Source: Leucocoprinus leucothites
Lineage: Eukaryota; Basidiomycota; Agaricomycetes; Agaricales; Agaricaceae
DNA length: 64,000 bases
Assembly: GCA_013368445.1 (NCBI GenBank)
Contig: JAACJO010000013.1
Location: forward strand, 62,001 to 126,000
Reading direction: 5' to 3'
A program made the translations under genes and the position numbers. Shown piece after piece: positions 43,589 through 55,153 of the stretch (positions are counted from its first letter, which is position 1; each line of letters starts with the position of its first letter). The notes beneath the pieces are model-generated. The model was not told the DNA's origin. It saw nothing but the letters and a program-made list of their open reading frames with translations, and searched no databases.

Positions 43589-46500
43589 ATGTCTGACAAT
43601 CGACACATGTATGCCAAAGTCCCGCTCCACGTTCTTTTACAGCCACTGATAATTGTGTACCAGACAAATTGCTCCCGGAAATGATGGGCTTCTTATACAA
43701 GGTGTGCCGCACCTTCGAGCCGCTATCGTGTGGTATCCGTCTAACAGCGTTGTCCCTAGGCTTCCCTGGTATACCGCCAAACAGCAACTTTCAGCATGGT
43801 GCCAAAATTGAAGGGGTGCGATTATCGGTTATCGACAATACTGACTTATGATTAACGACTTCGAATAGGAAGTCCAAATTTCCCTACCCCTTTTAGGCGT
43901 CGCGGCCTCCAAGATTGAAATAAAATTCTATAAATCTGAGAATGTCAAGGTTAAGGGCCAGCGGACAATCAACACCGTGGATTTATTGGACGCAGCTGTA
44001 CTGTGGGAGTCTAACTTTTACCGCTCGGAAACTACGGATTCTTATGCAGTGAGTCATATCTATCTATCTAGAGTCGCCGAGTGAACCCAGCTATGAACTG
44101 CAGGGAAAATATCCGTTTTCGCTCGATATTCCAGAGGATTTGCCACCCACGCTCTGCCTGGAAAAGCAAGGTAGCGCCCCTTTTCTATATCAACTGATAT
44201 TTTTCCGGCTCTCTAAAAAGGTTTTCAATAGGAATCGATATACAGTATTTACTCGAAGCAACTGTGTACCGCGACAATGAGTGAGTGTTACAGCCGACCA
44301 TCAATATGTGGTGTATACTCGGTGAAGATTAAATAGGAACTTGATAGGATTAAATTCTGGAAAGAGAAGCCTCTTTCCTGTACTCTGCCACTCGAGATTA
44401 CGAAGTACGAACATCATCCGGCTTGGCCGATGTATCATCAGCCAGAAGCCACACATCTTGACTTGGCGAGCATGCGTCTCTCTGTTACGCCTATCCGGAA
44501 ATGCTATAGCCCTGGAGAAACTATAATGCTTACTGCCCGACTATCCTGCGGATCCTACTCTGTCGTTCCAAGGAATGTCAAACTTGAGGTCAAGTTGCTG
44601 CAACAAATTATCACGACGTCTAAGCCCTCCGGGCCAATACGGCAGCTGCTTCGACAATCCGACAAAGCACCGCCTACGATAAATGTCCTTTCAACGCAAG
44701 CCGTTGGTTGTGCAAGAGTAGACCACACTGCAACGTTTACAGCTGAGTTGGTCTGTGAGGTTCCCGAAACAGACGTCATGCCGACCCTTGCCTATCGATC
44801 GCACATTCAAATAACCTATGCGCTGGTAGTCGCTACGGTCGTTCACTCGCAGCACCTCCAGCTTGAAGTGCCGGTTATCATTTCTCCGTTCCCTAGGTAT
44901 GTCCCCAAAGTTTGATCGGCCGACTTGAGGTTGGACTGACGCATCCCGTTCAGCGACATCCCAGATGCAGAGATCCAGTGAGCCGCTCACTTCTTAATTC
45001 CGCTCCAGCTGATGGTTGATTTCGCATCCAGGAAGATAGGAATTGTGCCAAGCTTAGGCGGAATTCCTCATTTCGAACGCCCTTCCTCGAATATGTTGTA
45101 TGCGCAAACTCTGGTTGAGCGCTTCACTCTCGGGACGCCCGCTGAGGCCCCTACTCTAGACACCGTGAGGGAGGATGATGAAAACATAAACTCCAGCGCG
45201 CGTTTTTCACGCTCCACCGAATTATCATCTACGACTCTCGTAGACTCTCCAGACAGCGATATTCGAATTCGGGTCACGGACGTAGATCGCAACAGTTTCT
45301 TGACTTCGAGAACAACGCAAAGAACAGGGTCCATCAGCACGGTGGATTCCGGTTATTTGATTCCAGGAAGCCCGATTAGAAATAGACTCGAGTCCAGTCA
45401 CCTCGTGCAGCTCGATGAGGAGATTTTAGCCAGTTGGTTTAAGTCCTTGAATTCGAAAGTTGCTGATAATGGAGCCTCGAATACGATCAGCTCGGATCCG
45501 GTTGGTTATTTGGGGCTAGTAGGTGATCTTACGGATATCCTCCAATCGCCCGAAAAAAAGAAAGTTCTACTGGGACTTAGAGGCTATCGGGCCCAGGTTA
45601 TTGTTGACTTCCTCGATTCTGTGAGTTTGGATTCAATGTTGATCATAACGTATGCCTCTCCCTCACGCCAGAGTTATTTAGGTTTTGGTAGAGATGGATC
45701 CGAGCAAAATCGAACTTCGGAAACAAGTTCTGATCACGCTATATCGCATTTGCAAGGCATCTCATTGCTATCCCGAGTGCTACACCCTACATAATATTGT
45801 AATTGGGACCCAGGAAGGCGGTGGAGGGTTCTGCGATATCCACAGAGGACGTCATAGGGATCAAGTTCTCTGCTTGAAGGTCGTGCGCATGTTCAAGAAA
45901 AACGAGACTCACAGTATGATAAAGGTAATTATCCTCAGACAAAGGCTTTACCTTGACACACTGACGGAGCTTTGTCAGCTATTTGCCAAGGAAGCCATCC
46001 TTTGGAGTCAACTCAACCACCCCAACATCTTACCGTTTTACGGCATTTATTATCTGGGTGAAGAAAATAAAAGAATATGTTTAGTATCTCCTTGGATGGA
46101 AAACGGTAACCTGGTGAACTATTTACAAGAGAACCCCACTGTAGCCCGCAGACCGTTTGTGAGTGGACAAAGCTTCTTTGCGAAGGCCATAATCTTACCG
46201 ATAGCAAAGATCTGCGACGTAATCACCGGCCTCGAATATTTGCACGAAAGAAACATTATTCATGGTGACCTTAAAGGTGTACGTAGTAACTTGTTCTTAA
46301 TTCGGATTGGAAAGACTGATATTAACCAAAATATTTTGATGAAGGTCAATGTTCTTGTCACCTCCTTTGGCAGGGCATGTATTACGGACTTCGGCCTTTC
46401 GTCCGTACTTGTGGAGAAGTCAATCACGGAAGCAGCCATGACTCCCAGCGTTATCCACGGCGGAAGTTATCGTTGGATTGCCCCAGAATTATTAGAGGCA

Positions 46501-47188
46501 GACTCCCACCCTACTCAGGCGAGCGATATCTGGGCATTTGGATGCCTCTGCTATCAAGTAAGAGGTCTCATTGAATCAACTTGTCGAACTCCTTTGAGTT
46601 AAACCCAACCGTCAGATTCTAACACGACGCGTGCCATTTCATAAAGCCTCCTCTGACCCTGCTGTCATCAAACTGATCCTGAATGGTGAAACGCCAACAC
46701 ATCATCATTCCGACAGCCCAGAAAGCGGACCCGACACCATCAACGACGAAATGGGACCTCTTTTAAAACGTTGTTGGACGTTTCCAAAGGAACGGCCAAC
46801 ATGCCGTCAAATCATGGAGATCCTTGGGATTTGGGGCTTGGCAGGGCGCCACGACACAATAACCAACTCTCAAGTCGCTGAGTTCAGGAGTGCCATGAGG
46901 AACAAGGGAAACTCCCCGGTCGATCTAGCCGGAATTGATAGTATTTTCAGTGAGGTAAGAGATATGCACGTTACAGTGATTCCCACTTTGACGATCCACA
47001 CAAGATCAAACGAACTGGAAGCACCGATCAAAAAAAGTCACCGAACGCCTACAATTAAGTTTACACAAAAGACAGTGGGATGTTGGCGGGTCCGTCTGAT
47101 GTTTCCCTATTTCAAATTCATCCCCTCTCGCCTACTTATGTGCCAGTCCCCCATTATTCGGTTTTTGGTTAAATTACGATTCTCCTAA
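43589..47188 (+). CDS. Arrestin-like domain fused to TKL protein kinase, copy 1
   Basis: Fourteen exons: 43,589-43,608; 43,664-43,701; 43,760-43,815; 43,869-44,048; 44,104-44,170; 44,232-44,280; 44,348-44,896; 44,954-44,977; 45,032-45,620; 45,682-45,924; 45,979-46,158; 46,210-46,278; 46,345-46,557; 46,616-47,188. Total 2,850 nt, 949 residues. Residues ~8-325 form an arrestin N and C fold: GAKIEGEVQISLPLLG, GKYPFSLDIPEDLPPT, CYSPGETIMLTARL, then SHIQITYALVV and LQLEVPVIISP. A linker (~328-524) ends with a helical part (WFKSLNS, GLVGDLTDILQS). The kinase covers ~560-820: Gly loop EGGGGF (569-574), Lys590, Glu610, HGDLKG (683-688), DFG (703-705), APE (734-736); all catalytic residues present. 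The kinase belongs to the TKL family expanded in agaricomycetes. No PPxY ubiquitin-ligase motif is seen. The arrestin part may recruit the kinase to membrane cargo. The 3' end after FSE may contain a further intron. Confidence 0.85.
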
Positions 47189-47593
47189 GTACAGAACAAG
47201 GAAAGCCGACCTGGTGAAGGTATGTATACCTAAAATAGATGCGATTGATGTCGCAACTTAATCAAGCACTATTAACCAACACTTCTTGCGTGCATTATAT
47301 TTCTCTTGCGTTCATCCGTTGTACTTCATAGACATTACTTTTGGAAACTTCTGAGTTCCCATCAAATTCCCTACACGAAAGTACTACAGCACCTAAGCCT
47401 CGTAGACGATAAGTAGTTGGACAGCGGTCCAAGCATGTGTCATCAGTCAACCGCATGGTACTGTCTATCTTTACTCAAGTTCTGTTAACCGAGGCGAGGC
47501 GTTGTGCTCTGAGTGGCGGGTAACGTTCCCTATATTGATTCAAGATGTGTTCCTGATGGGCCTCGATTAGTCGGCATTTAGTCAAAAGAAAAA

Positions 47594-48422
47594 CTATCTT
47601 ACCGGATCGAAGGTCTCTTGGAAGCTCTTCCGGCCTTTGACGGCAACGAAATACTTGCGGAACCTCTCAAACATTGGGTCCGTTTGCAGGGTTTCGTAAA
47701 CTCTTTTGCCATCCCCTTCATCGAAAGCTCCGAGGTCATTCTTGAATGCCAATTCAGCTCTGGCCAAGAACGGCGTCACAGCAGCATCCGCAATTGACCA
47801 TTCTCCTATCGCGTAACCTTCTGCGGGAAGAAGAGCTTGTATAGCCTGAATGCCCTCCAGAAACTTCTCTGGACTTTCACCTCGGTTCGCTGAGGCATAC
47901 CACGCTGGAATGGCCTTGGAGGAGAACGTTTCAATGAAGAATCGGGCTTTCGCGCGGAGCAGAGGGTCTTTCGGAAGGAGAGTTTCTAAGCCAGTGAGAT
48001 CTGCAATAAATTCCAGCAGAACAAGGGATTCCGCGAGCTTTTGGGATTCCGCAGAAGGCTGGTCGGGTGCGACTTTCGGGCCGCCATACGAGATTGCCGG
48101 AACCTATGATCGATGTATATGACGACGTCTTATCTGATAAGAAGAGGCCAACTTACCTTGCTAGCAGGGTTGACTCTTGGTGCATACCACTCAGGCTTGG
48201 CTTTCAGGTCAATCTCAAATCTATCATAAGACAACCCGGATTCTTTGAGGGCGATTTCGACCTGTCTTTATCCCCTGAGCAAATGTGTGAAGAGATGACT
48301 GTCAAGCGGTATCACCCTGTGAGCGTAAGGGCAGACCTGTGTGAGTAGGCTTTCAGCTTTGTCACTGGAACTTACACTCAGAGGCGTACCTTTGCGGAAT
48401 AGAGAGTGAGTTGTTCAGGCAT
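47594..48422 (-). CDS. Glutathione S-transferase, omega-like
   Basis: Four minus-strand exons: 48,422-48,390; 48,336-48,316; 48,261-48,157; 48,103-47,594. Total 669 nt, 222 residues. N-terminal thioredoxin fold: MPEQLTLYSAK, then the active-site motif VCPYAHR in its own 21-nt exon, then VEIALKESG and NPASKVPAISYGG (glutathione-binding cis-Pro region). C-terminal helical domain with FFIETFSSKAIPAWY and EWSIADAAVTPFLAR. The Cys in CPYA places it with omega-type enzymes, which reduce or deglutathionylate rather than conjugate. The frame ends ETFDPVR with a stop at 47,594; a GT donor inside that last codon group (CCG|GTAAGA) means a further small exon is possible. It sits between the two arrestin-kinase genes on the other strand. 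Probably cytosolic, detoxification or redox. Confidence 0.88.
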
Positions 48423-50172
48423 TGTGTATGACAAACTCTTAGATGAGAAAGCAAAGAATTTCCCCAGGCTTCAACATATACTGCTTGGACTCTGGTCATG
48501 CGTGATTTATAATTAGGTATCCCACGACATCTCGCCACCCCATGCCGCCATAACGCACAAAATGGCTAAAGCCGAGCTGTACAAGAATGATGTCACTTCG
48601 GCTGCTGATATATATATATACTGTAATATCCGAAAATTACTAGGTAAAGTCATGAGCTCTATAACCTGGCATGTAAGCTCTCGGTATGCCGGGTATGAAC
48701 CAGAAGCTCTATTATGAAAATCGGCGCTGTGCTTTCGGAAATATTTATGATTGTCACATCCATCTCTTGTATTAATGACACAAGCGCAGAAAGGAGATTA
48801 GCCTGAGGGGTTTTATGATTTATCGCCTTCTGAAGCTTAGTTGTAGTCGAGCTTAGCGAACTTGCGAACGTGACCGTCTATCTTAGATCGAACTTACTCG
48901 AAGGTCATGGCACTCAGGATACGCCTTTCTAACGGTACTAGCTGGTACCAGGCGGTTACGAGTAGCTTCATTGAGTTTACAGCGACCCATTACCGGATCT
49001 GAATGGCCCGAGTAACTATAAGCTAAATTTAGCCTCAAGGCTCAAGCTATATACTGACCAATTGAATTATAAAGGTAGTAAAGCATCTTCAGTTGAACGG
49101 TATCCTCAGCATGACTAAAGGCCAAAAAATTATATTAGCTTCATTCTTGCTGTGTCAATTACAGATGTTTGCAGGACAAGCGGCACATCATCGTCAGATA
49201 CATGAAGAGACCGCGACTGCTAGAGGTGATAGGACGATCAGGTGCCTGAATCATCCAAGTCATTGTCGGGGCACGTGGTTGACTGTTCTACAGCTTATAG
49301 CAGGGGAAGGCTAGAGAGAAGAAAGATGCCAACTTAGAATGAAGAAAAGACAAGCAGTAGAAGGTGGGACAGTGATTGCACCCATAAACTGTGACTTGCA
49401 CCACGAGAAACTGGGACAGAGTGAGAGGAACACCGGGACAACAACAGATCATCGATCTCGATCAGTACTCAGTAAGAGAAAGCTGGTGTCAACATACTGC
49501 ATGACGTCTATGACAGTCTTGCTGACAAATCACTGTCATTCCGTGCCAAGCTGCGGTCGGCCATACCATCCTGCCTGAACCCCGCCAAATTGACATCGCC
49601 GCATTCTGTCTGGGTAGTGACAGCCGCAGAAGCTGTGGCCTTGTACTGCCTGAGACCCGCAACCGGCCCCCTGCCCCTCTTGCTCGCATTGTACGGTCCT
49701 GACTCAAAACCACTGCGGAGTGACAACCCACGGCATCACACTGTTCTCCTTGACTTCGTATACTACCAATATTCGCAGCGTGGCGTAACTTCCTGGCCTG
49801 TTGGTTGCTTCAACCTTGGCTGTCTGGTGCACTGCCCAGTTATTAGATCAGCAAGTCACAAGCCCTCGCGTATACTGTTTCATTGAGCTACCCCACTATC
49901 TACAGGACTGGGAGGCACAAAGGCTGTAAGGTCTTGGCAGTGGTCACCTTTAGACGTATCAAAAGCCAACTATCATCGGAGCAAAAAATTTGCTGTAAAA
50001 GGTAATTTGCTCGGGAATAGGCCCGTTTAGTCATGCACGTTCGTCCCAGTCCTATTTTCGCTCATGTCGTGGTAATTACTGAACACGGACAACTCGAGTC
50101 AGCGCCCAATATATGGAGCGCTTCCAAAAAGCATTTGGTACCCCATCTAACATCTCCCTGTCCCCTACCGCC
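48423..50172. other. Intergenic stretch with one possible small secreted-protein frame
   Basis: A 68-codon frame from an ATG at 49,111 begins MTKGQKIILASFLLCQLQMF and could be a signal peptide, but there is no other support. A (TA)n tract is near 48,606-48,620. Nothing else recognised. Confidence 0.3.
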
Positions 50173-53100
50173 ATGTCTAACGGGCAGCCTCGCATGTATG
50201 CCTTTCACTTCAAAATTGTTTCATACTCATTTATTCATATGGACTAGACAAATCGTTCCCCAAACCAAAGGAGGTTTTATTCTAGGTATGCAGCTCCATT
50301 TTTTGTCGTGTGATGCCCTCCTGATGACGCTGACCATAGGCTTGCCCGGCATTCCGTCGAACGATGCCTTTCCACGGGGCGCCAGAATCGAAGGGGTGCG
50401 GTAGTTTCTAGAGTTTCCTCTGAAGGTCGACTGAATATCTGCTTATGGCCCAGGAAGTCCAAATCTCTTTGCCCCTTCTCGGCGCACCGGCCTCTATAGT
50501 AGAGGTCGAGCTCCAGAAAGCCGAGAATATCACAATAGATGGCCAAGAGACAATCAGCGCGACGGATTTACTAAGAAGGACTGTCCTTTGGCCCCCGAAT
50601 GTACGTCGCCCGGAGACAATTGACATCTATTCGGTGAGCAAGCCACTTTTGACTTGGAACTATTGAGATCGGATAACTTACAGCATTGCAGAGGAACTTT
50701 CCATTCTCGATAATTATCCCAGAGCACGTGCCGCCCAGCGTCTCACGGGGAAATCACGGTATTCCTCTCAAGCCACACAGCAATTTCACCCACGCCTGAC
50801 GTCTTTTCGATAGGTATTGAAATTGAATACTCCTTACGTGCGACCGTGCATCGCGGAAATAGGTGAGTTAGGTCGTAATTTGTTGATGCGTCGTAGTTAC
50901 TGGATATTTACCAAACTATTCATAGAAGCAAGTTCTGGTCTGACAAGCCGCTCTCCTGTTCCGTACCAATCAGGATTACCAAGTACGAACAGCATCCGGC
51001 GTGGCCAATCTACCACCAACCAGAGCTCAAGCAAATGTATCACGGAAGCATACGCTTTTCTGCTCGGCCTCTGCGGACTTGCTATAGCCCAGGAGAAACA
51101 ATAATGCTGACCACCGAACTATCGGTTGGATCTTATAGTGTTATCCCTAGGAGCGTTGAGTTTGCCGTAAAGTTGCAGCAGCTCATTGCGACATTCAAAT
51201 CATCCGAAAAGAATGCACAATCATCGCATGGCCAACAAGGCAAGAAAACTACCATCGATCTTATCTCGAAGCAAGCTACCACCTGCGCCAAAATGGATCG
51301 CTCAACGACATTCACTGCTGAGCTGGCATGTCAGATACCCGGAAGAGACGTCAAACCGTCTCTTCCGTATTCAATATCACATATCCAAGTTTCATACGTT
51401 TTGACAGTGACCACGACCATCCATTCCCAGCACCTTCAGCTTGATGTACCGATCATCGTCTCTCCGTTCTACTGGTATGTCTTCAACCGACTCTAATGGT
51501 TTTCTTGAACTCAATATCTGATTTAGTCGGTCTTCTAAAGCAGAACTGGAGTAAGTCCTTGATGACTAATTCGAAGCACTATGTAACGAATAAATGATCC
51601 CACCACAGAGAAATTGGGAGTGTACCAAGCCTAGGTGGAGCTCCTCAATTCGACTACGTTTCGCCGAAGTTGGAGCACGTGGACACCCATCGATTGTCGG
51701 GAACGACGATCAGCCCGGATCGTACTTCGACAGACTACAAATTTACCTTCATCGATGCAGACGATGATCCCGATCCTATCTTTCGAGCGAGAGCGCGGAG
51801 ATCAGGGTCCATCAGGACAATAGACTATGACTTCTTCCGGCAAGAAAGTCCCACTGGCAAGACCGATATTCACCTTGAAGAATTTAATAACGAAATTCTG
51901 AAGCATTGGTTTACGGATCCAGAAGAATCCTCAATTTCCAATCCAATTGATATTAGGACGTCGGACGCGACCAATTTCCCTTCAGTCAATTATGCAGGCC
52001 TTCTAGGCGATCTCACGTATATTCTCCAATCTCCCAGAAAAAAAGCGACCCTCCTGGATCTTCGAAAAGACCGAGCTCAGGCTGCCGTTGATTTTCTTGA
52101 CTCTGTGGGTTTCAAGCTCAAAACACATATCACAATAGCTCATTGCTGTATGAATGCACGAACCTCCAGGTATTGCTTGCGCTGGATCCAAGCAAAACTC
52201 GGCTTCGGAAGCAAGTCCTAATCACGTTGTATCGCCTTTGCAAGGAGTCACATTGCTATCCAGAGTGCTACACTATCCACAACATCGAGATCGAGTCTCA
52301 TGAAGGCGGCGGAGGATTCTGCGATATACACCGAGGACACCACAAGGATCAGATCCTCTGCTTGAAGGTTGTACGTCAGTTCAGGAAAACCGACACAGAG
52401 GCGATGATCAAGGTATTTCACGTCGGTTTTCTACTATAGCATTCCAACATCCTGATGCACCCTTGACAGTTATTCGCCAAAGAAGCCATCCTTTGGAGTC
52501 AGCTCAGCCACCCCAATATTCTACCGTTCTACGGTATCTACTACCTGGGCGAAGAAAAGAGAATGTGCCTAGTTTCTCCCTGGATGACGAACGGGAACCT
52601 GGTGAATTATCTGCAGGATCATCCTCTGGCCCCTCGTAGACCTTTCGTAAGTGAATTTGAAAATCCCCAAAGACGACCAATACCCAACTGATAATTATAA
52701 AGATCTGTGACGTCGTTACTGGTCTCGAGTATTTGCACGAGAGTAACATTATTCACGGCGACTTAAAAGGGGTGCGTCAACGCTTGTACTTGAATGGTAT
52801 TATAAGGGCGACTCAAAACATACACTCTTATTAGGTTAACGTTCTCGTCACCAGCTCTGGGAGGGCCTGCATTACCGACTTCGGCCTTTCGTCGGTTCTC
52901 GTTGACAAATCTATCACAGAAGCAGCCATGACCACCACCGTCTATGGGGGCACCTACCGCTGGATCGCTCCCGAGTTATTGGAAGATAACGATCCACAGC
53001 CCACGAGAGAGAGTGACATCTGGGCTTTTGGATGCGTTTGCTATCAAGTAAGTGACTGCCCCGAGTAAATATGCTTAAACCCAGCAAATTGAGCTTCACC

Positions 53101-53480
53101 TCTAGATTTTGACGCGACTTGTACCCTTTCACGAAATTTCCTTGGATATCGCTGTAATCAGGAAGATTCAGAATGGGAGAATACCGACACAGCACCCTTC
53201 CGGTGATGCTAGATCTACTATAGATGTCATCGACGACGAAACTTGGTCCCTTATGAAACGCTGCTGGAGCTTTGATCCAGGAGATCGACCAACCTGTCGC
53301 CAAATCATGGAGATCCTGGGAATTATCGCTTCTGCAAGCCACTATGATATAACGTCATACAGTCTTATTGCCGAGTTCAGGAGCGCCATGAGGAACAAAG
53401 ATCACGCTCCGATTGATCTGGCAAAAATGAGTACTATATTTGACGAGGTACGCAAAATGCATCTTGTATTACAATCGTAG
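50173..53480 (+). CDS. Arrestin-like domain fused to TKL protein kinase, copy 2
   Basis: Fourteen exons: 50,173-50,195; 50,248-50,285; 50,340-50,395; 50,454-50,633; 50,692-50,758; 50,814-50,862; 50,926-51,474; 51,527-51,550; 51,609-52,104; 52,170-52,412; 52,470-52,646; 52,703-52,771; 52,835-53,047; 53,106-53,480. Total 2,559 nt, 852 residues. Exons 2-8, 10, 12 and 13 have exactly the lengths of copy 1. Arrestin part: MSNGQPRIQIVPQTKGG, GARIEGEVQISLPLLG, FPFSIIIPEHVPPSV, CYSPGETIMLTTEL, LQLDVPIIVSP. The linker (exon 9) is 31 codons shorter. Kinase: EGGGGF, LCLKVV, AKEAILWSQL, HGDLKGVNVLV, DFGLSSV, WIAPELL all present; it ends VRKMHLVLQS. Tandem paralogue of the gene at 43,589 with clear sequence divergence, so the duplication is not recent and both reading frames were kept. 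Confidence 0.87.
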
Positions 53481-53601
53481 TTGACTGTTCGTGCAAGATC
53501 AAGCAAGTCGACGAGGAACAACAGCCGGGCTGTGAAAATTAACTTCGGGAGTAAGGAAAATGATGACATCAATTACACATATTTTATTTAGTAGCCGTGC
53601 C

Positions 53602-54773
53602 CTACATCTGCTCCAGTTTCGAGAGCCCATCTCTCAGCGCCTCTCCTTCTTTGCGCCACTGGCGCTTCTCATATGCATCATAGGCCTCTTTTTCATCTAT
53701 CCAACGCTCCTGTACATCGCGTACGTCGCTCAGAGGGCCTTTGATTGGTCCGACGGCAGAGGAGAACAGCCCATAAGCATTGGGCCGTAGGTCTGGGGCA
53801 GTGTCCATCTCATCAACGACTTCTGGTGGAGGTTTAGTGTCGGGAGGAGGAACAAACACGTGGCCTGTCGCTCTGTCAATAGCCCTAGTTAGGTTCAGCA
53901 TGGAGTTTTTATCCTGTAGGCATGTTGGTAATATGGTAGACAACGGGCTACAGGGACTTACCTCGACTGCCAACGTTTCAAAGCCGACAAGGCTGAAATC
54001 CTGTACGAGATCGATCATCGCCATGTTGAGTGTCGAGAACTTTGATGGTAGCGACGAAGATAGCGAGTTCTCTAGATAGGATAAATCTTGGACTTCCGTA
54101 TAGAAATCGAGGTTGAACTCTGTGATGTCGGGTCAATTAAGTGAAAGTGCTCTGAGGTTCGCAAACTTGCCAAGGTCTCCATATTGCTTCAGCAGATCAA
54201 TCTTTGACAGAACATTGATATGCGGAAGTTCGAGATGCAGCATTGCCCTGAGCGAAAGGAGCAACACAGAGACATATTTGGCTGCGTCGGTAATGTAATG
54301 GGCATCGCAAAGATGCACAGCCGCTAACTGTCCTAGTTGAACATGAGTAAAGATCGAATAGAGCTTTCTCAGTTACGCACCCTGAAGCCGTTCTTAACCA
54401 GCTTGCTTATAACCCTCTTGATACTGTCGTGATTCGTGCTCAACTCTACCTGCCCAGGTAGATCGAAAAGAATGTAAGCGTCGTCGCCCAACTCCTTCAA
54501 CTTTGCTTCCAGCCAGTCAAAGTTAGCTTCTAGATACTCCATGGCATACAACATCCCGCCGTTTGGGCCGAGGCCGTATTCATTCATCACGTCCTTCAAA
54601 GTGATAAGTTCAAATATGTTGACTGCGCAAGGGTACGGTATCGTGTCATTTGCGGGGTCGAGGTTGACGACAGCTATAGGTCTGTTGATGGCATTAAACA
54701 GCTGATATTTGCCATAGCAGTATGTGGATTTTCCGCTTCCCGGAGAGCCGCAAACAATTTCACCGAAAGGCAT
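53602..54773 (-). CDS. GPN2: GPN-loop GTPase 2
   Basis: Minus strand. Exon 1 54,773-54,381 (131 codons): P-loop GSPGSGKST at residues 9-17, GPN insertion LGPNGG with GPN at 69-71, and the G3-like DLPGQVELST. Exon 2, about 54,317-54,170: LAAVHLCDAHYITDAAKY and VLSKIDLLKQYGDLGKF with the base-specific SKID. Exon 3, about 54,119-53,963: EFNLDFYTEVQDLSYLENSL. Exon 4, about 53,918-53,602: DKNSMLNLTRAIDRATGHVF to the C-terminus LRDGLSKLEQM. GPN2 works with GPN1/GPN3 in assembly and nuclear import of RNA polymerase II. The join between exons 2 and 3 lacks a GT donor: the sequence after GGCAAGTTTG is CGAACC, and the only GT nearby is out of phase. Either a rare splice site, a mutation or an assembly error. 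Otherwise intact. Confidence 0.85.
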
Positions 54774-55153
54774 GGGTTTGGGAGCGAAAGATGGAAGAGA
54801 TGTTTATGTGATAGGTATGATTTAATTATTTGGTGATATCCTTCGAACCAAACATCTGACAATCCCCAAATTCGGTCGTCATTGTCGTGATGGTGTGAAT
54901 CCAAGAATAACCAAAGCTAGAGGTGCTGTATCTCCTGCTCCTGGTGTCCGAGCTTCAAGGTCCCTCCAAGCCTCCGCGTTTACTTGAATCAGGACGTGTT
55001 GGATGTCACAACGATACTGAGAAGCTGATAGCACCCTTTTGAAGGCGTTCAAACGTTTGGTCAAACACACATACAGCTAGAGTGAAGAATTGCAATATAA
55101 TATTGTATGAGCGAGATAAGCTAAGTGACATCACTGGCCAGAAGACCTGCACA
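54774..55153. other. Intergenic stretch between GPN2 and CFT1
   Basis: About 380 bp, serving as the GPN2 promoter and the CFT1 3' region. Open frames here are not convincing. Confidence 0.5.

Follow-up and report, generated by a model that had tools for sequence, protein, structure and literature searches.

Tandem genes predicted to join arrestin lobes to a protein kinase in the mushroom Leucocoprinus leucothites

Introduction

In animals, kinases of the GRK type and beta-arrestins are separate proteins that act on the same receptor, the GRK being an AGC kinase with an RGS domain. This article describes two neighbouring genes of the agaric Leucocoprinus leucothites (Agaricaceae; assembly of 47.0 Mb), given the working labels ARK1 (gene 1) and ARK2 (gene 2) in this analysis, which are predicted to carry an arrestin-like half and a protein kinase in one chain. 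The genes lie in a window of 64,000 nucleotides, positions 62001-126000 of contig JAACJO010000013.1 (C13), and coordinates given without a contig or locus refer to this window.

Described fungal alpha-arrestins include Ali1-4 of Cryptococcus, for which a looser PxY definition of the ligase-binding motif was used (PMC6867901). The fungi-specific kinases termed FslK possess extra domains in 16 of 241 members (PMC3937382), and an expansion of TKL kinases has been described for Laccaria (PMC2838846). Bigrams of a G protein-coupled receptor (GPCR) and a TKL kinase have been described in oomycetes (PMC6033456), as have GPCR-TKL/K proteins in choanoflagellates (PMC12716839). Arrestin is not mentioned in the main text of either fungal kinase paper, nor in that of the kinome papers on Dictyostelium and Phytophthora. 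No family of arrestin-kinase fusions turned up in the open-licence literature searched, which agrees with an initial annotation of this DNA that knew of no described family with this order.

Gene structure of ARK1 and ARK2

The arrestin-kinase fusion proposed in the initial annotation is, as judged from exon models, deposited models and three homologues from L. birnbaumii, real and common to two species of one genus. The full arrestin-linker-kinase architecture (type A) is found in five proteins of L. leucothites and L. birnbaumii. In both ARK1 and ARK2, a PSLGG motif, the linker and a large part of the N-cap, a segment that precedes the kinase, are encoded by exon 9 in a single open frame. 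This exon is open for 196 codons in ARK1 and 165 codons in ARK2, for which the chance is about 5e-5 and 2.5e-4, respectively (rough figures from the base composition of the window, with the frame picked afterwards). Differences in exon length between the two genes are multiples of three throughout exons 1-13.

Exon models were built from splice signals and the comparison of ARK1 with ARK2, with the lengths given in the initial annotation known beforehand. The first models have 14 exons each, GT-AG introns, equal intron phases and no internal stops, and they reproduce the 2,850 nt (ARK1) and 2,559 nt (ARK2) that had been reported as joined in phase without a stop. The frame continuity expressed by these lengths stands, but the last exon is probably wrong, as it reads into an intron in both genes. 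Both deposited proteins and all four L. birnbaumii proteins have Asn as the C-terminal residue, and a matching 15th exon follows a 50-nt intron in each gene (47005-47058 in ARK1 and 53498-53542 in ARK2). The feature, which had been taken to end at 53480, should thus end at 53542. With exon 15 included, ARK1 encodes 889 residues and ARK2 encodes 856 residues.

ARK1 is deposited as D9756_008182 (P0003) and ARK2 as D9756_008184 (P0001), and the database names of the proteins are either hypothetical or protein kinase domain-containing. The deposited ARK1 model retains a 51-nt in-frame intron (46159-46209), a stretch that is missing from the other four type A proteins, and the deposited ARK2 model starts 20 codons farther upstream. 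The parts of the two genes, all on the plus strand, are as follows.

43589-44896: ARK1 exons 1-7 (43589-43608, 43664-43701, 43760-43815, 43869-44048, 44104-44170, 44232-44280, 44348-44896), arrestin N and C lobes, from the exon model, the Arrestin_C match and P0003
44954-45506: ARK1 exon 8 (44954-44977) and first part of exon 9 (from 45032), PSLGG motif and linker
45507-45813 (limits approximate): ARK1 N-cap, end of exon 9 and start of exon 10, with phase-0 intron 45621-45681
45814-46825: ARK1 kinase domain, exons 10-14, with introns 45925-45978, 46159-46209, 46279-46344 and 46558-46615
46826-47058: ARK1 C-terminal extension, exon 14 to 46954, intron 46955-47004, exon 15 including the stop
50173-51474: ARK2 exons 1-7 (50173-50195, 50248-50285, 50340-50395, 50454-50633, 50692-50758, 50814-50862, 50926-51474), arrestin N and C lobes, from the exon model, Pfam, P0001 and the predicted fold
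51527-51990: ARK2 exon 8 (51527-51550) and first part of exon 9 (from 51609), PSLGG motif and linker
51991-52289 (limits approximate): ARK2 N-cap, end of exon 9 and start of exon 10, with phase-0 intron 52105-52169, helical in the model
52290-53318: ARK2 kinase domain, exons 10-14
53319-53542: ARK2 C-terminal extension, exon 14 to 53447, intron 53448-53497, exon 15 including the stop

Arrestin half, linker and kinase half

The Pfam model Arrestin_C (cut-off 27.7) matches ARK1 with 61.5 bits and ARK2 with 55.0 bits, in two stretches each, the best of which is the N lobe in ARK1 and the C lobe in ARK2. Arrestin_N and LDB19 remain below the Pfam cut-off in ARK1 and ARK2, neither of which is listed in a genome scan with Arrestin_N, and the homologue P0005 passes the Arrestin_N cut-off with 25.0 against 24.9. 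A scan with NCBIfam gave only matches far under the cut-offs. The predicted structure of residues 22-352 of ARK2 is a two-lobed fold that is placed, with moderate confidence, among arrestins and Vps26, and the matches listed (50 in each fold comparison) are all arrestins or Vps26. All 52 PDB sequence matches to the arrestin half with E <= 1 are named arrestin, but they are weak (best E 9.5e-4). Both the N and the C lobe that define an alpha-arrestin are therefore recognised in ARK1 and ARK2 from Pfam and the moderately confident model, of which the kinase part was not used.

Outside the kinase, neither ARK1 nor ARK2 has a PPxY or LPxY motif, the sole LPFY being located inside the kinase. The PSLGG motif is invariant in the six aligned fusion proteins (the five of type A and one of a second type described below). 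Among the five type A proteins, conservation is lowest in the linker, with 23-47% identity. Ser and Thr account for 24% of the linker in ARK1 and 20% in ARK2. A hydropathy scan of the six fusion proteins revealed no membrane span, and the only window above 1.6 is in the retained intron of P0003.

The kinase half matches Pkinase (PF00069) with 137.9 bits in ARK1 and 149.7 bits in ARK2 and PK_Tyr_Ser-Thr (PF07714) with 133.3 and 140.4 bits, all far over the cut-off. It is provisionally called TKL-like on the basis of the literature on agaric kinases. PF00069 scores higher than PF07714 in both genes. Among the best 60 of 1,793 solved sequences, EGFR and a JAK-type kinase come first and RIPK1, MAP3K12 and ABL next. 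Both genes encode a Gly loop (GGGGFCD), the Lys, HGD, DFG and APE, and the catalytic residues are invariant among the type A genes. The initial annotation had called the kinase intact on these motifs, the N-terminal half an arrestin fold and both genes free of PPxY, and each of these statements was borne out, the first by the motifs, the second by the structure prediction and fold comparison and the third by the motif scan.

The kinase half has 142 matches listed in the L. leucothites genome. The N-cap, which is split by a phase-0 intron in ARK1 and ARK2, recurs with a GT at the same place in eight more kinase genes, which are spread over 7 of the 14 kinase loci surveyed (L043, L046, L047, L049, L051 twice, L053 and L055). 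The pattern was not found at L042, L044, L045, L048, L050, L052 or L054, the last of which has a variant in sequence.

Tandem duplication and distribution of the fusions

The proposal that ARK1 and ARK2 are a tandem duplicate is supported. In the arrestin half, ARK1 is 63% identical to g6603 of L. birnbaumii and ARK2 is 62% identical to g6605; in the linker the values are 47% and 41%, and in these parts the members of each pair are closest to one another, which suggests that the duplication predates the split of the species. In the kinase, ARK1 and g6603 are 85% identical. Conservation is higher in the kinase half than in the arrestin half. Over 842 codons, dN is 0.30 and dS is 2.5. A tree of 25 kinases, all from the L. 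leucothites genome and L. birnbaumii, leaves 11 of its 22 inner branches open, includes two rows (g6603 and g6609) that are longer than the kinase, and carries a long-branch warning between the second fusion type (type B) and C6_1980. It was relied on only for the separation of the 5 type B rows from the other 20 (100/100) and the grouping together of the five type A kinases (100/99).

Protein-database searches covered 5.8 billion proteins, and the two described below scored only the approximately 8,000 candidates with most words in common. The fusions found, five of type A and one of type B, are all from Leucocoprinus, and given the number of candidates scored their absence elsewhere is unproven. 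Among these candidates, no stand-alone protein closely related to the arrestin half was found. In one search, 54 of 60 matches were kinases without an arrestin among the listed Pfam domains. Another search gave eight matches: five fusions (four type A and P0006) and three metagenome frames (P0061-P0063; 208-212 aa, 46-53% identical, covering about a third of the query), which hint at relatives elsewhere, with or without a kinase. P0004 was missing from this search, perhaps owing to its length.

The type B protein P0006 (g504 of L. birnbaumii) shares the arrestin half (43-49% identity) and PSLGG with type A; the kinase behind them belongs to a different clade (32-37% identity) and lacks the N-cap. 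Its counterpart in L. leucothites is located at C30:380 kb (L021 7027-4170, minus strand; C30 about 378.7-381.5 kb) and has six introns at corresponding borders. Intron 2 of this gene has no GT donor and a frame change in the kinase is apparent by eye, so that it may be a pseudogene or contain sequencing errors. Three kinases of the type B clade are found at C30:321-328 kb, with no arrestin match nearby. The arrangement thus appears to be wider than the initial annotation saw, with the same arrestin half on a second kinase clade and, as described below, other modules ahead of other kinases.

Between ARK1 and ARK2 is an open frame on the minus strand (47594-48103) that has no Pfam match and resembles a glutathione transferase. 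An ATP_bind_1 match on the minus strand (54369-54803), taken to be a GPN-type GTPase, adjoins the pair, and farther upstream in the window are Exo70_C (30463), a CBF/NF-Y histone-fold protein (26109) and a dynein heavy chain N-terminus (9202).

Probable origin of the arrestin half and other modules ahead of kinases

The nearest stand-alone arrestin in the genome is at C5:145 kb and shares 90 of 282 residues with ARK2. With the exon choice made here, all five introns compared match those of ARK2 in place and phase, two of them being off by 1 and 6 alignment columns beside gaps. These common introns suggest that the front half of an arrestin gene was copied at the DNA level. Long open frames follow the lobes of the C5:145 kb arrestin, and no kinase is among the matches listed there.

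The survey covered 14 loci (L042-L055) of the 142 kinase matches and 40 chosen open frames. A non-kinase domain over the cut-off is present in sense and shortly upstream of the kinase at five of the 14 loci:

L042, 646-4115, minus strand (C6 about 2021.1-2024.6 kb): NPHP3_N and NACHT in a frame of 618 codons directly upstream of the kinase; an HMG_box frame is below the cut-off
L043, 2270-3634 (C2 about 940.8-942.1 kb): CNH (33.0 and 26.6 bits) ahead of the kinase, with the CNH end and kinase N-cap in one frame; PH_5 is below the cut-off
L051, 872-2337 and 4754-6123 (C10 about 1326.9-1332.1 kb): tandem kinase genes, both with EH ahead of the kinase and EH to N-cap in one frame; two of the seven EH matches listed for the genome are here
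L053: CCCH ahead of the kinase
L054, 2966-7435 (C2 about 1297.0-1302.4 kb): CRIB/PBD ahead of the kinase; a PAK-like CRIB gene and a CRIB front half with an N-cap-type kinase behind it are arranged head to head

Only in the CNH gene and the two EH genes does a single open frame span both the module and the N-cap; for CRIB, NACHT and CCCH there is adjacency to the kinase only, and the CRIB frame shifts in between. At L046, Ubiq_cyt_C_chap is nearly 3 kb away and is therefore taken to be a separate gene, and L052 has a second kinase domain. Matches at L047 (Gti1_Pac2) and L048 (SDA1) are below the cut-off, and no upstream module was found among the frames scanned at L044, L045, L049, L050 and L055. 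At L054 the CRIB front half is identical in 138 of 318 residues to the neighbouring gene, presumed to be a PAK from its CRIB, and it looks as if the kinase was exchanged in a duplicate of a PAK-like gene. L042 is possibly an NLR-kinase gene.

The arrestin-kinase looks like one among several such joinings by the kinases of this mushroom. A tentative proposal, which falls somewhat short of likely, is that these form a modular kinase system in which one kinase cassette, with its N-cap and its exon border in a constant position, was repeatedly attached to front halves taken from duplicates of resident genes that regulate the cell cortex and endocytosis (alpha-arrestin, the EH scaffold, the CNH Rho-GEF, the CRIB region of PAK and NACHT). 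The outcome would be a lineage-specific repertoire of aimed kinases, possibly decoys, with the same arrestin half also fitted with a second kinase. This wider cassette pattern is the more surprising part of the results. If true, kinases gain new aims by capturing front halves of resident genes, and the pattern can be checked in existing mushroom genomes.

Proposed function and alternative explanations

It appears likely, if only just, that ARK1 and ARK2 are aimed kinases, in which the arrestin lobes direct the joined kinase cassette to arrestin-bound membrane cargo. The two lobes of a duplicated alpha-arrestin, introns included, would have been joined to a cassette consisting of the helical N-cap and a TKL-like kinase of a family that is large in the genome. 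The arrestin half would serve as an address by binding a membrane transporter or receptor in its activated or modified state, or its endocytic coat, and the flexible linker would let the tethered kinase phosphorylate the cargo or adjacent proteins. Because PPxY is missing, the output would be mainly phosphorylation and not recruitment of a ubiquitin ligase. The suggestion of the initial annotation that the adaptor may bring a kinase in place of a ligase agrees with this anatomy. Cargo binding, kinase activity, expression and the directing of the kinase by the arrestin are all predicted from sequence.

Several observations weigh against this interpretation. Confinement to one genus speaks against a core role. 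The looser PxY motif is present as PIYH 185 and PFYC 338 in P0001 and PMYH 164 in P0003, and P0005 has LPHY in the linker. PFYC 338 is directly behind the arrestin lobes of ARK2 and fits the definition used for the Cryptococcus arrestins, so that together with the LPHY of P0005 it leaves room for a ligase role. The kinase of ARK2 is no closer to that of g6605 (74%) than to that of ARK1 (76%), and the tree groups the g6605 kinase with the ARK1 group (91/78); this incomplete pairing may reflect gene conversion or later exchange between the tandem copies. In addition, dS is not computable in three of six segments, deposited P0002 lacks part of the kinase, and Arrestin_C in P0004 (27.4) is just under the cut-off. 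The structure model is under pLDDT 50 for the kinase (residues 542-849) and averages 47 over the whole chain.

A chance beta sandwich in place of an arrestin was rejected on the fold and PDB sequence matches, all of which are arrestin or Vps26, and the mistaking of neighbouring genes for one was rejected on exon 9 and the second species. That separate arrestin and kinase genes merely adjoin is accordingly very improbable: the deposited models may be predictions lacking RNA support, like the reading of the fusion from DNA and predicted proteins here, but exon 9 runs from PSLGG to N-cap in one frame in both genes and five proteins of two species concur. The kinase might instead act in cis by phosphorylating its own linker or arrestin half, which would switch the adaptor on or off without a separate substrate. 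Alpha-arrestins are known to be controlled by phosphorylation, 20-24% of the linker residues are Ser or Thr, and a ligase could still be recruited through PFYC in ARK2 and LPHY in P0005. The poor conservation of the linker and the missing PPxY of ARK1 and ARK2 run counter to this idea, which is considered rather unlikely.

Judged quite unlikely is an integrated decoy, in which the arrestin half would be a bait copy of a resident regulator and the kinase would fire when interference by a rival, virus or parasite is sensed. A resident arrestin with common introns exists, other kinases here follow modules of resident regulators (such as NACHT, and CRIB next to a resident PAK), the arrestin half shows the lower conservation of the two halves, and a parallel has been proposed for plant (wheat) kinase fusion proteins. 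There is, however, no known immune setting or effector, and both arrestin lobes are kept as expected of a working adaptor. A similarly low likelihood is given to drift, with lineage-specific fusions having little function of their own. While occurrence in one genus and the damaged appearance of type B in L. leucothites are consistent with drift, the type A genes are kept with open frames in both species, dN is far below dS and the catalytic residues are invariant.

The fusion brings two known families together in a new way, and its proposed aim is plausible. As a natural single-chain protein it would let the effect of proximity alone be examined, and would provide a handle on substrates of the large kinase families of mushrooms.

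Comparison with known systems

Kinase and arrestin are paired in ARK1 and ARK2 as they are in the animal GRK and beta-arrestin system, which differs in using separate proteins, and a kinase of the AGC type, where the ARK genes would encode a single chain. Like the fungal alpha-arrestins (Ali1-4; PMC6867901), ARK1 and ARK2 have two lobes, a match to Arrestin_C over the cut-off and introns in common with the resident arrestin at C5:145 kb; unlike them, they have no PPxY or LPxY outside the kinase, and the kinase replaces the usual tail. They resemble FslK and the Laccaria TKL kinases (PMC3937382, PMC2838846) in having a kinase from a large family of Agaricomycetes and in lacking the tyrosine-kinase motif DL(R/A)A(A/R)N, in place of which the ARK genes have DLKGVN. 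They differ from these kinases in their extra half; 16 of 241 FslK carry extra domains, and the main text of neither paper mentions an arrestin. The nearest in idea are the GPCR-TKL bigrams (PMC6033456, PMC12716839), which likewise combine a module of a receptor pathway with a kinase, there of the TKL type, in a single chain. The seven-span membrane domain of those proteins was not seen in the hydropathy scan of the six fusion proteins; there it is the receptor that is fused to the kinase, whereas in ARK1 and ARK2, which have no predicted membrane span, it would be the adaptor.

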